From Campylobacterales bacterium (GTDB lineage: Bacteria; Campylobacterota; Campylobacteria; Campylobacterales; JAOZPA01): DNA of 35,634 bases. A program made the position numbers and the translations under genes. The notes beneath the pieces were generated by a model. The model was not told the origin of the DNA. It worked only from the letters and a program-made list of their open reading frames with translations, and did no database searches. Location of the stretch: NCBI GenBank assembly GCA_029932985.1, contig JAOZPA010000003.1:1-35634 (forward strand), in the 5' to 3' direction. Shown piece after piece: positions 1 to 29,162 of the stretch. Position 1 is the first letter of the stretch; each line of letters starts with the position of its first letter.

Positions 1-558
1 GAATATGATTTAAAATTATCGGAAGATGATATGATTTTTTTGGAAAAATTGCTAGAGAAAGAGAAAGTTTATCTTGATATTTACAAAGAGGAAAATTTAA
101 AGATGAAATTTATTTCACAAATTTTAAATAGGGTTGATTTTGTTATTAATGATGAGATAAGAGATTTTTATGATGAAAAACTTTTATATGAAACAGATAA
201 ATTTATTTTGAATGGTGAGACAGATTTTATGGTGGCTAAAGGTTTGGAAGAATCTGAAAAACCCTATTTTTTTATCCAAGAGTTTAAACAAAATGAGGAA
301 TATGGAAATCCACGACCACAACTTTTGGCTGAACTTATCTCTGCAATTGAGTTAAATGGTTGGAAAACTATAAAAGGAGCTTATATTATTGGAGTTAATT
401 GGAATTTCGTAATTTTAGAGAAATTAGGAGAAAAAAAATATCAATATTTTATAAGTGAAAAGTTTAATAGCTCTAAAATAGATGAGTTAAAAGCGATTTA
501 CAAAAATCTACTTTTCATAAAAGCGGAAGTAATTAAAATGGTTGATACAGGGATTTAA
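1..558 (+). CDS. PD-(D/E)XK-type nuclease-like protein, copy 1 (5' end cut by window)
   Basis: The reading frame is open from base 1, so the beginning lies outside the window; the first internal ATG (position 31) is probably not the start, because the residues before it align with the interior of the paralogue at 1185-1922. A block TDF, about 20 residues, then QEFK (an E-x-K) followed by RPQLLAELISA fits the core of the PD-(D/E)XK nuclease fold, as seen in restriction-type enzymes. No signal peptide or membrane segment is visible. The last codons and the downstream sequence are almost identical to those of the paralogue, pointing to duplication. Function is inferred from the motif only; substrate and partner are unknown. 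The stop codon lies inside the palindrome GGGATTTAAATCCC. Confidence 0.6.
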   Translation, partial: EYDLKLSEDDMIFLEKLLEKEKVYLDIYKEENLKMKFISQILNRVDFVINDEIRDFYDEKLLYETDKFILNGETDFMVAKGLEESEKPYFFIQEFKQNEEYGNPRPQLLAELISAIELNGWKTIKGAYIIGVNWNFVILEKLGEKKYQYFISEKFNSSKIDELKAIYKNLLFIKAEVIKMVDTGI

Positions 559-597
559 ATCCCCAAACGAAAATAAACCATCGGTGAGGGGACTGAA
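538..597 (+). repeat. 60-nt direct repeat, copy 1
   Basis: This 60-nt block starts in the last codons of the first nuclease gene and runs past its stop. It matches 1902-1961 at 56 of 60 positions by eye. It contains the palindrome GGGATTTAAATCCC and ends in CGGTGAGGGGACTGAA. The identity extends into non-coding sequence, so recent duplication or recombination explains it better than protein constraint. Confidence 0.85.
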
Positions 598-631
598 AAC
601 TTTTCTAATTTAGATAAAGAAGGAATATATT

Positions 632-1171
632 ATGTTAGCTAGAAAATATGAGGAGTTTTACACAGCTGAAGATTATCAAAAGTGGAAGGGAGATTGGGAA
701 TTAATTTATGGTTCTATTTACCCTATCATCTCTTATTCTATTCTTACACATCAAATTATTAATGGTAAAATATTAAAACAATTGAGTAAAAAATTAGATA
801 ATTGTTCTAGTTGCCAACCTTCTTTTTCAATAGATTGGGAAATTTATAATGATACCGTTGTTAGACCAGATACGATTGTGATTTGTTATGAGCCAGATGA
901 AAAGTTGACGAAAAAACCTGAAATTATTTTTGAGATAGCTTCACCTTCGACGATTAAACGAGATGAGACTGTTAAATTTGATATTTATCAAAATGAGGGT
1001 GTGAAATATTATATTATTGTGTATCCTAAAAAACAGATTGCAAAAGTTTATAAATTGCAAAATGGGCGGTATGTGAAAGAGAATGATTTTAGTAATGAAA
1101 ATTATAATTTTGAGATGGGTGAGTGTAATATAGATTTTAATTTTTCAAAAATTTGGCGATTTGCTTTATAA
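632..1171 (+). CDS. Uma2 family endonuclease
   Basis: The protein (179 residues, a normal length for the family) has the hallmarks of the Uma2/DUF820 restriction-endonuclease-like fold: RPD at about residues 78-80, EIASPST at 101-107, DETVKFDIY at 111-119 and a following KYYIIVYP strand. These carry the acidic and basic residues expected of a PD-(D/E)XK-like active site. ATG is preceded by AAGGA at a good distance. The next gene begins 13 bases after its stop, so the two are probably cotranscribed. Uma2 genes occur in large numbers in some cyanobacteria and large-genome sulfur bacteria; their cellular role is unresolved, and mobile-element-like or defence-like roles have been suggested. Family assignment is firm, function is not. 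Confidence 0.9.
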   Translation: MLARKYEEFYTAEDYQKWKGDWELIYGSIYPIISYSILTHQIINGKILKQLSKKLDNCSSCQPSFSIDWEIYNDTVVRPDTIVICYEPDEKLTKKPEIIFEIASPSTIKRDETVKFDIYQNEGVKYYIIVYPKKQIAKVYKLQNGRYVKENDFSNENYNFEMGECNIDFNFSKIWRFAL

Positions 1172-1184
1172 GAAGGAGAACAAA

Positions 1185-1922
1185 ATAGCTGATTTAGATA
1201 AAATAACTTATGAAGATTTTTTAAAGTTACAAAAAATATTTAAGGACAATAAAAAATCTAAAAATGGAAAAGATAGTTATCCTTATAGTGAGATGACAGA
1301 TACAAAACTGGAAAAATTAGTAGATATTGAGCAAAAAATCAATCATTCAAAATTTGACAAGTGGTTTAATAACTCTATAATTTTAGATGAAAAAATCAGT
1401 ATTTTTTTAGATGAACTTTTAAAAAAAGAGGGTGATTATATAGATATTTATGATGAGGAAGATTTGAAGATGAAATTTCTAAGTCCGATTTTTGTAGATA
1501 TTAATTTTAAAAATGAGAATTTTAGAGATTTTTATGACCATAAATTAACTTATGAAGCAGATAAATTTATATTTAATGGCAAAACTGATTTTGTAATTTC
1601 CACAGGATTAAGACGACCTAAAAAACCATATTTTTTTATTCAAGAGTTTAAAAGACGAGAAAAAGATGGATTCCCAAGACCACAACTAATAGCCGAACTT
1701 ATAAGTGCAGTTGAGCTTAATAGTTGGAAAAATATTAAGGGAGCTTATTTAGTTGGAGAGATTTGGAATTTTGTAATTCTGGAAAAATTGGGAAAAGATA
1801 AATATCAATATTATATTAGCAAAAATTTTGATAGTAGTGATATAGTTGGATTAAAAAATATCTATAAAAATCTTCTATTTATCAAAGATGAGGTGATTAA
1901 AATGGTTGATGCAGGGATTTAA
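1185..1922 (+). CDS. PD-(D/E)XK-type nuclease-like protein, copy 2 (apparent ATA start)
   Basis: Full-length paralogue of the gene at the window start. Counted from the proposed start, the putative metal-binding aspartate is D135 in KTDF and the E-x-K motif is E154/K156 in IQEFK, followed by RPQLIAELISA. The N-terminal 80 residues are helical and charged with no signal peptide. Start choice: AAGGAG at 1173-1178 is followed after six bases by ATA at 1185, and no ATG, GTG or TTG lies at a suitable distance. The only canonical alternative is TTG at 1161, inside the Uma2 gene and without a ribosome binding site. The gene sits 13 bases after Uma2, so coupled expression is likely. It ends in the 60-nt repeat shared with copy 1. 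Nuclease activity is inferred from the motif. Confidence 0.65.
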   Translation: MADLDKITYEDFLKLQKIFKDNKKSKNGKDSYPYSEMTDTKLEKLVDIEQKINHSKFDKWFNNSIILDEKISIFLDELLKKEGDYIDIYDEEDLKMKFLSPIFVDINFKNENFRDFYDHKLTYEADKFIFNGKTDFVISTGLRRPKKPYFFIQEFKRREKDGFPRPQLIAELISAVELNSWKNIKGAYLVGEIWNFVILEKLGKDKYQYYISKNFDSSDIVGLKNIYKNLLFIKDEVIKMVDAGI

Positions 1923-1961
1923 GTCCCCAAACGGAAATAAACCATCGGTGAGGGGGCTGAA
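1902..1961 (+). repeat. 60-nt direct repeat, copy 2
   Basis: Second copy of the block at 538-597, with four differences. It spans the last codons, the stop (within GGGATTTAAGTCCCC) and non-coding sequence to GGGGGCTGAA. The palindrome here is imperfect by one base. Confidence 0.85.
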
Positions 1962-18569: not shown

Positions 18570-19817
18570 CTATCCTTTTAGTAAATTTACAAATTCTTTA
18601 AACTTTTCCCCTCTATCCTTATAGGATTTGAATTGGTCAAAACTAGCGGCGGAAGGAGAGAGTAGGGCAACGGATTTTTTATCTAGTTTTTTGTCTATTT
18701 CTATCACTGCTTTTTCCAAGGTTTGGCAATGGAAATTTGTTTTATCAATTTTTTTAGATAATTCAAGTAATTTTTCACTATTTCTACCTATGCAAAATAT
18801 CTCTACATCATAATTTTTTAGATTTTCAAAAAGTGGGCTTAAATCCACACCTTTATCGTCTCCACCCAAAATCAGATAAATTTTTTTATCCTCATACCTT
18901 TTAACCGCCTCGATGGTGGCATCTAAATTTGTGGCTTTTGAATCATCAACCCAAATTCGCTTTTTAGCATCTTTAAACTCCTCAATTTTATGAGAATCTA
19001 TCTTGAAAGAGTTTATTTTTTTATAATTTACTTTGTCAAACAAAATTTTACCAACGGCTAATGCCAAAAGTCCATCTAATAAAAATGGCTCTTTTAAATT
19101 GATTTTTTTTATATCAATCTCAAAATATTTAGCCAAATCTTCACTATTTTCATAAATTATCTTGAAAGCAGATGTTTTAATATTTTCATATTTTTTTGGT
19201 AAAATTGCTATTTGCCCCTCACTCATTTTTTTAAGAGGTTTGAGTTTTGCCTTTTCATAAGATTCAAAATCTCCGTGCCAACTTAGATGGTCAGGTTTAA
19301 TTGGCAATAAAATATAGATATTTGGTTTTGCAATTTTGGTGTAATGGAGTGTAAATGAGCTAGTTTCCAAAATCCAAATTTTTGCCTTTGGATTTAGTGA
19401 AGCTACGGGAATTCCAATATTTCCACCCATCACTGCTGATTTTTTTTTGAGCAGATGGTAAAGCATCTGTGTTGTGGTGGTTTTGCCATTTGTGCCACTA
19501 ATCCAGATTGAATATGGCATAATAGAGCTAAAAAGGTCATAATCACTTATCAAATTTTTAGCTTTTTTTACTAATTTATGAGTGGGAGGAATCCCCGGTG
19601 TGACCACCTCTAGCCTACTTTTTTTTGAGCTAAATTTTTTTGGAGGTAATAATAAATTACCATCTTTATCTCTACTCTTTTTTATAAATTTATCATCAAA
19701 AAATTTACAATTTTTAAATTTTTTACTAATCGCTCTAGTGGTGAGTGAGTAGCCAAATAAACTCAATGGAAATTCAGCGGTGAGGGGACTTAAAGCCAAT
19801 TTATCAATTTTTTTCAT
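18570..19817 (-). CDS. murD: UDP-N-acetylmuramoylalanine--D-glutamate ligase
   Basis: Adds D-glutamate to UDP-MurNAc-L-Ala in the cytoplasm. The Mur ligase P-loop is SGTNGKTTTTQM. Further motifs are LETSSF, IKPDHLSWHG, VDDSKATNLDAT and LILGGDDKGVDL, ending in LLSPSAASFDQF. Length (415) is normal overall. The N terminus is unusual: about 17 residues precede LSLFGYSLTTRAI, the stretch with which relatives such as H. pylori and C. jejuni MurD begin (ISLFGYGKTTRA). The extension contains a DNA segment resembling an intergenic repeat. The start overlaps the mraY stop (TAATG). Confidence 0.96.
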   Translation of the reverse strand: MKKIDKLALSPLTAEFPLSLFGYSLTTRAISKKFKNCKFFDDKFIKKSRDKDGNLLLPPKKFSSKKSRLEVVTPGIPPTHKLVKKAKNLISDYDLFSSIMPYSIWISGTNGKTTTTQMLYHLLKKKSAVMGGNIGIPVASLNPKAKIWILETSSFTLHYTKIAKPNIYILLPIKPDHLSWHGDFESYEKAKLKPLKKMSEGQIAILPKKYENIKTSAFKIIYENSEDLAKYFEIDIKKINLKEPFLLDGLLALAVGKILFDKVNYKKINSFKIDSHKIEEFKDAKKRIWVDDSKATNLDATIEAVKRYEDKKIYLILGGDDKGVDLSPLFENLKNYDVEIFCIGRNSEKLLELSKKIDKTNFHCQTLEKAVIEIDKKLDKKSVALLSPSAASFDQFKSYKDRGEKFKEFVNLLKG

Positions 19818-22345: not shown

Positions 22346-23320
22346 CTATAAAAAAGTTTGAAGTTTTATTAAACTATGCAAAAGATATGCACTTTTGTTT
22401 AAAGTTGTTGAACTTTTTAGCTTAAGTTCGCAAGACAAAAGATATTCAAGAATTTGTTGATATTGATTCTCATTTAATCGCCCCGATTCACTCGCCCTAC
22501 TTTGTGCAATCTGTGGAGGCAAATTATACCCCAAAATCGCCGTTGAATTAAACTGTCCATGAGTTTTCATATAAGCATAAAACATAAAAAGAGTCACCAC
22601 ATAATTTTCAATTCCATTTATAATTTTTACTTCATCATAAAGTTCCAAAATATTAGGCAACCGCACCTTAATATCCTGCTTTTTCAAAATTAAACGAATA
22701 AAATCCTCAAGCCCTAGCTCTCCGTCCCCGCACGAAAATTTGTTTATCTGCTGATATGTTATTGGTTCATTCAAAATTGACAATTTTTCAAGCTCATTGA
22801 CCGCCATTGATAAATCTTGATTAGAACTCATAAAAAGATGCTCCATTGCATAATTATCTATCTTTACACCCAGTTTTCTAGCTTCTGCCCCAATATAATT
22901 ACAAGCTTCATAGATTTTGGGTTTAAAAAATCTCACAAAATCACTATTTAACTTTTTTGAAAAACTTTTTTGCATATCTCTAGCTTTGGTAGTCTCTCCA
23001 GAAAACTGCAAGAAAAAATAACTATTTTGGGCATTATTTGCTACACCTATCAACTTTTTCAACTGCGGTGAGGGGATTTTCTGCTGATATTTAACAATCA
23101 ACACATTTATTTCACCAAACAACGACCCCTGCGAAATATGAGTCAAAGCACTTTCATAATTGAATTCATCAAAATAAAAAGATAATTTGTCACTTTGACC
23201 AATCAAATTTAATATCTGCTTTAGATAAAAATCACTCTGATAATCACACTCACCATAAAATAAAAACGACTTTGGGATTTTGTTTTGCGAAAGCATATTT
23301 TTTAATTCATTTTTATACAT
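22346..23320 (-). CDS. holA: DNA polymerase III subunit delta
   Basis: Clamp-loader subunit. The sequence shows the divergent but recognisable HolA pattern: SFLFYGECDYQSDFYLKQIL at the N terminus, LIVKYQQKIPSPQLKKLIG, and a helical C-terminal domain. Length (324) is usual, and its place before rpsF-ssb-rpsR matches Helicobacter. ATG 23320 follows GAGGAGA, inside the end of the upstream accessory gene (19-nt overlap), so an essential replication gene is now read behind the cassette. Confidence 0.88.
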   Translation of the reverse strand: MYKNELKNMLSQNKIPKSFLFYGECDYQSDFYLKQILNLIGQSDKLSFYFDEFNYESALTHISQGSLFGEINVLIVKYQQKIPSPQLKKLIGVANNAQNSYFFLQFSGETTKARDMQKSFSKKLNSDFVRFFKPKIYEACNYIGAEARKLGVKIDNYAMEHLFMSSNQDLSMAVNELEKLSILNEPITYQQINKFSCGDGELGLEDFIRLILKKQDIKVRLPNILELYDEVKIINGIENYVVTLFMFYAYMKTHGQFNSTAILGYNLPPQIAQSRASESGRLNENQYQQILEYLLSCELKLKSSTTLNKSAYLLHSLIKLQTFL

Positions 23321-29127: not shown

Positions 29128-29162
29128 ATTTCCGTTAGGGGACTAAATCCCCAAACGGAAAT
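29128..29162. terminator. Long hairpin shared by convergent DUF3137 and HU genes
   Basis: ATTTCCGTT pairs with AACGGAAAT (9 bp); after an A/A mismatch, GGGGA pairs with TCCCC (5 bp) around a CTAAA loop. It reaches the first base of the HU stop. It is likely a bidirectional terminator. The right half (TCCCCAAACGGAAAT) also occurs in the 60-nt repeat at 1902-1961. Confidence 0.75.

Follow-up and report, generated by a model that had tools for sequence, protein, structure and literature searches.

Sequence words that mark DNA for uptake by competent cells, known as DUS and USS, have been described in two proteobacterial families, Neisseriaceae and Pasteurellaceae; the words of the two families are unrelated to one another and are considered to be convergent (PMC5031613, PMC12616744). 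Known species harbor from 927 to 1,965 copies, and pairs of uptake sequences are found in terminators of Neisseria and Pasteurellaceae (PMC1852404). Bakkali reported that the signal drops 92-fold in H. influenzae and 82-fold in N. gonorrhoeae between zero and one mismatch, and a further 9-fold and 7-fold between one and two mismatches, with 65% and 35% of the copies placed in ORFs, respectively, and with no orientation bias (PMC1939737). The USS of Haemophilus and the other Pasteurellaceae (AAGTGCGGT; AAGCGGT has been proposed in H. ducreyi) is among the closest described counterparts of the 10-base word CGGTGAGGGG considered here: both are dispersed exact oligomers with a large ORF share, no orientation bias and an A/T-rich extension, and both form hairpin pairs behind genes in some cases (PMC1939737, PMC1852404). 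However, the word analyzed here is unrelated to the USS in sequence, belongs to a different phylum and presents a lower density. It is also unrelated in sequence to the Neisseriaceae DUS and its dialects (GCCGTCTGAA), which are associated with the ComP receptor, and two words are known here.

The window, meaning the whole stretch of 35,634 nucleotides that was analyzed, starts at base 1 of a contig from the draft genome (2.43 Mb, 210 contigs) of a Campylobacterales bacterium, and its features are listed in Table 1. A sequence-only reading of its first 2 kb had described two nuclease-fold paralogues, P1 and P3, on either side of a Uma2 gene, sharing 56 of 60 nt across their stops and into nearly identical non-coding DNA. 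The three genes were all present, with P1 and P3 matching at ~65% protein identity and the Uma2 gene matching its Pfam model with an E value of 5e-20 (72.1 bits, against a cut-off of 27). The alignment of P1 with P3 contained four mismatches from roughly 532 to 597, which bears out the shared ending, including the near-identity of its non-coding part. P3 seemingly starts at about position 1185 with an ATA located after an AAGGAG site, and the homologue at locus L010 has an ATG there; the ATA may be a start codon of a rare type, or it may result from a lesion or from an error in the assembly.

Table 1. Features of the window, in positions of the whole stretch
Feature	Position	Strand	Remark
P1, paralogue of the PD-(D/E)XK family	1..558	+	Truncated at its 5' end by the contig edge
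Variant arm, first block (TCGTTTGGGG on the minus strand)	561..570	-	Directly past the P1 stop
CGGTGAGGGG, first block; dispersed oligomer resembling an uptake sequence, with ACT after it	582..591	+	
Uma2-family gene (PF05685)	632..1171	+	One of three Uma2 genes in the searched genome stretches
P3, paralogue of the PD-(D/E)XK family	ORF 1161..1922	+	Homology from ~1185; start codon uncertain
Variant arm, second block (CCGTTTGGGG on the minus strand)	1925..1934	-	Directly past the P3 stop
CGGTGAGGGG, second block	1946..1955	+	Pairs with the variant arm as a hairpin
CGGTGAGGGG	19778..19787	+	Near the 5' end of minus-strand crude CDS 18570-19817
CGGTGAGGGG	23066..23075	+	Within minus-strand crude CDS 22346-23320
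Additional copy of variant CCGTTTGGGG	29149..29158	-	

The 60-nt block was found to consist of CGGTGAGGGG, an oligomer dispersed in the genome, and of a variant arm, CGTTTGGGG, in inverted arrangement. Behind P3 it runs AGTCCCCAAACGG-AAATAAACCAT-CGGTGAGGGGGCT, that is, the minus-strand variant arm, a spacer and the plus-strand CGGTGAGGGG. Folded as RNA, the P3 block gave -22.2 kcal/mol with a z of -3.2, and the P1 block folded no better than its shuffles (z -0.9). No terminator role is claimed for the P3 hairpin, because no T-run follows it. Such close inverted pairs were rare, comprising ~4 or 5 of 103 copies according to the criterion used, and the two pairs of the window are unusual in this respect. 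The motif or its variant was found within 80 nt past the stop in 14 of 42 genes of the paralogue family, and in 45 of 512 crude CDS outside it (odds ratio 5.2, p 2.8e-5). The cases within the family do not count as independent, given that its tandem copies have their 3' words in common.

It had been suggested that P1 and P3 owe their nearly identical endings to gene conversion or to a recent duplication, and the local pattern is in line with such an event: in fixed 60-column windows, 34-48 identities were counted along the genes (~60-80%) and 52 over the 3' end, with identity rising to ~93% over the block, the spacer AAATAAACCAT is common to both blocks, and tandem copies of the family elsewhere (L012, L025) have identical 3' words. 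However, in a tree of 40 copies the sister of P3 was the copy at locus L009 (support 99/98), with P1 outside that pair and a P1-P3 path of 1.76 changes per site, and L009 lacks the block, presenting a different sequence after its stop. The block was therefore not brought by a recent gene duplication, and P1 and P3 are, judging from this tree, old paralogues. In addition, the spacer resembles the sequence that precedes unrelated copies. Recent duplication or conversion thus appears highly improbable as the source of the near-identity, and gene conversion of the 3' end may have made a minor contribution.

It had also been proposed that the block was the end of a mobile unit terminating in GGTGAGGGG, and that it should be sought across the genome. 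This search was the decisive check. When used as a query, the whole block was recovered only twice (allowing up to three mismatches) and nowhere else, and what proved to be dispersed was its core word, CGGTGAGGGG, with 277 copies in the 2.43-Mb genome, whereas the reversed control gave 3. Genes contain over half of the copies sampled, and in argJ and lpxA, the two that were checked, the word stands in gap-free alignment with solved homologues (rdgegtnk versus sdgegaak and rdgegatk for ArgJ; higegami versus kvgegcmi for LpxA), so that in both cases it arose by substitution rather than by insertion. The mobile-unit end was discarded on these grounds, with the whole block occurring just twice and its word everywhere.

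By contig strand, the copies of CGGTGAGGGG divide into 158 and 119. The word occurs 0-12 times in each of 59 other genomes of the order, and CGGTGAGGGGACT, with 98 copies here, occurs no more than twice per genome in 396 others from the phylum. In a 612-kb sample it was the top over-represented 10-mer (106 copies versus 0.61 under an order-3 model). This sample was partly picked for contigs with motif hits or paralogues, a choice that biases neither the count of 277 nor the contigs taken without regard to the motif, in which the word was again the top 10-mer (17 in 167 kb, 131-fold). Raw k-mer over-representation is unspecific, since local repeats give such words in other genomes, and for this reason dispersal and synonymous shuffling were also considered. 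An 18-nt form of the word, compared with viral contigs, yielded two single matches.

Coding sequences were called crudely and account for 91% of the bases in the 612 kb. Within them lie 56 of the 106 copies (29 sense and 27 antisense), and the remaining 50 are between genes, where the density is ~10 times higher. When the 576 crude CDS were shuffled among synonymous codons 200 times, a mean of 0.32 copies and a maximum of 2 were obtained, compared with the 56 observed. Gly-Glu-Gly was spelled GGTGAGGGG in 26 of 47 cases, where codon usage predicts 3.5%, and Pro-Leu-Thr was spelled CCCCTCACC in 17 of 53, where it predicts 0.16%. None of the genic copies occupies the frame that reads TGA, as required. 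The coding copies also retain the flanks A(G/T) and ACT, and the consensus is thus longer than 10 nt. With respect to exactness, over-representation was 2034, 32, 6.4 and 2.6 at 0, 1, 2 and 3 mismatches, and one-mismatch neighbors of CGGTGAGGGG are few. The over-representation values correspond to drops of 63-fold and 5-fold for the first and second mismatch, with 53% of the copies in genes.

The coding test bears directly on the possibility that the word is a REP/REPIN, the type of short palindrome that RAYT transposases disseminate, with the block as a REP pair. Elements of this type resemble the present word in being short, present in many copies, often located behind genes and arranged in inverted pairs (PMC3733652). 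The genome encodes two Y1_Tnp genes, some intergenic copies extend to GGGG...CCCC palindromes behind stops, and most copies of the variant arm CCGTTTGGGG lie between genes (22 versus 4). However, REPs are predominantly extragenic, whereas half of the copies here are intragenic, in frames that avoid an in-frame TGA; they are mostly exact, with few one-mismatch forms, and those of argJ and lpxA are substitutions in gap-free stretches. Moreover, neither Y1_Tnp locus has flanking inverted copies, as RAYT genes would, and a similar word is dispersed likewise in the Thiovulaceae. The REP reading was rejected on the genic copies and their synonymous shuffling, and we consider it very unlikely. As to CCGTTTGGGG itself, this second dispersed word has 31 copies in 779 kb, many of them with a GGGGACT tail, and it may be an older dialect or a mere pair partner.

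A word that is short, exact, dispersed and present also within genes could instead serve the cell's own DNA machinery, as a Chi-like, KOPS-like or nucleoid-protein site, and its G-richness would suit this role, some Chi sites being G-rich. Nevertheless, Chi and KOPS are normally orientation-biased, and in this draft genome CGGTGAGGGG showed no bias relative to the gene strand (29:27) or to the local G-rich strand (29:27); the same was observed for the similar word in the sampled segments of Thiovulum (73:67, local G-rich strand). Besides, the consensus reaches past the 10 nt into the flanks. A role of this kind therefore seems unlikely.

These results altogether indicate that the genomic profile of the word is that of a DUS or USS, and that it fits neither REPs nor Chi sites nor a mobile-unit end. 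The features by which uptake sequences are recognized were observed here: over-representation of the exact oligomer with a steep fall at one mismatch, a large ORF share in both orientations beyond what protein and codon usage account for, and a copy number in the range of hundreds to ~two thousand, with 277 at its low end. With one copy per 8.8 kb, CGGTGAGGGG is nonetheless sparser than the uptake words of the known species (PMC1852404). It is thus probable, on the basis of the genome sequence, that CGGTGAGGGG acts as a DNA uptake sequence and that the shared ending of P1 and P3 is an oppositely directed pair of it behind their stops. Under this uptake-sequence reading, competent cells would preferentially take up fragments carrying the oligomer, and as these fragments recombine the oligomer would be disseminated and maintained through molecular drive, in genic and intergenic DNA alike. 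The shared ending would then consist of two nearby inverted copies, CGGTGAGGGG and the arm CGTTTGGGG with their A/T-rich flanks, that came to stand behind the stops of old paralogues, and two copies meeting behind a gene could form a hairpin, like the DUS and USS pairs of Neisseria and Haemophilus. The competence genes found here are ComEC, two DprA-type genes and a secretin. Genes of this kind are common and have no discriminating value, and the secretin was found also in genomes without the word.

A similar word was found in the Thiovulaceae. In a blind scan of all coding 9-mers, CGGTGAGGG ranked first in the present genome (z 58, and z 18 in the unselected contigs), and CGATGAGGT ranked first in both Thiovulaceae genomes sampled, Thiovulum and a relative (z 45 and 25). 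GRTGAGG was absent from the eight top coding 9-mers listed for four other genomes of the order, in which the best z was 10 to 12. For the form YGATGAGGT, the counts in the Thiovulaceae pair were 896 and 1,396 (strands 451/445 and 697/699) against 25 and 99 for the controls, with 3 to 129 copies in the other genomes, and its density in Thiovulum and the relative nears that known from Haemophilus and Neisseria. In the Thiovulum sample, the one-mismatch neighbors of CGATGAGGT numbered 0 to 15 each, except TGATGAGGT at 123. CGGTGAGGGG and CGATGAGGT have 7 of 9 positions in common, which by a rough estimate about 1 in 100 such pairs would reach by chance, and the likeness is only suggestive of common descent of the two words. 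By Tgt identity the Thiovulaceae are not especially near relatives of this bacterium (63-66%, versus 65-70% for many others). A related genome (G003, loci L201-L210) showed a further over-represented and dispersed word, GTTACGCAAA, with 11 copies in 200 kb.

We lean slightly towards the view that Campylobacterota represent a third origin of DNA uptake sequences, in which G-R-TGAGG is common to two dialects or more, namely CGGTGAGGGG in this bacterium and YGATGAGGT in Thiovulum and its relative. A search of titles and abstracts, a body of text in which subscription papers are mostly absent, returned no report of uptake sequences in Campylobacterota, Epsilonproteobacteria or Thiovulum. If true, a third independent case with dialects would make it possible to test the onset and the drift of self-recognition in transformation. 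It would also suggest that transformation is sequence-biased in giant sulfur bacteria, of which, as far as we know, no pure culture has been obtained.

The neighboring genes, of two nuclease-fold families, had also been regarded as a possible functional pair. Two of the three Uma2 genes in the searched genome stretches are near a family gene (the one in the window and one at L010, at a distance of ~1.4 kb). However, a Uma2 match was found in only 1 of 80 nuclease-family loci from other genomes, and the adjacency is thus not conserved, which speaks against such a pair.

Searches with P1 and P3 by tblastn returned 52 places in the window and 36 further stretches of the genome, including fragments located at the ends of contigs, and an HMM search scored 45 members, so that the genome has at least 45 copies. 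The family was found in 5 other genomes among 60 searched of the order, with 3 to 10 copies each. Among the best 80 of 268 relatives were giant or filamentous sulfur bacteria (Thiomargarita, Achromatium, Parabeggiatoa, Thioploca and Thiovulum), together with cable bacteria, Methylococcaceae, Desulfobacterales and Sulfurovum. D143, E162, K164 and Q175 were invariant in the 40-member alignment, which is the PD-(D/E)XK nuclease pattern, and D143 and E162 stood at 90% or more in a second alignment (A2). From the D...ExK core that they carry, P1 and P3 are assigned to the PD-(D/E)XK nuclease superfamily. The CRISPR-associated PADLOC model PD_DExK (PDLC01472) matched 7 of 7 paralogues scanned (E 1e-7 to 1e-14); the paralogues keep its D...ExK...Q residues, although the match covers only part of the protein and no Pfam or NCBIfam family was found for them. 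An AlphaFold model of a family protein (pLDDT 87) gave mitoribosomal large-subunit proteins as its best PDB fold matches, followed by weak matches to Cas4 and restriction enzymes (E 0.02 to 0.1), and because of these top matches the nuclease assignment leans on the residues and the PADLOC match more than on the fold. No name for the family was found through Pfam and NCBIfam.

This unnamed PD-(D/E)XK family thus accounts for 45 or more genes within 2.4 Mb of genome, and its catalytic residues are intact in 40 of 40 aligned copies. Another over-represented word, AAAGTTGCGG, was considered as a dispersed motif and set aside: 29 of its 30 genic copies are on one side, and the RPQLLAE stretch is conserved in all paralogue copies, so that the word is taken to represent the RPQLLAE codons of the family. 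With respect to other neighbors, tandem family genes at L021 (2-856 and 3247-3645) lie between two ORFs that are caspase-like by eye, and at L017 (1935-3782) three ORFs that are TerD-like by eye adjoin family genes.
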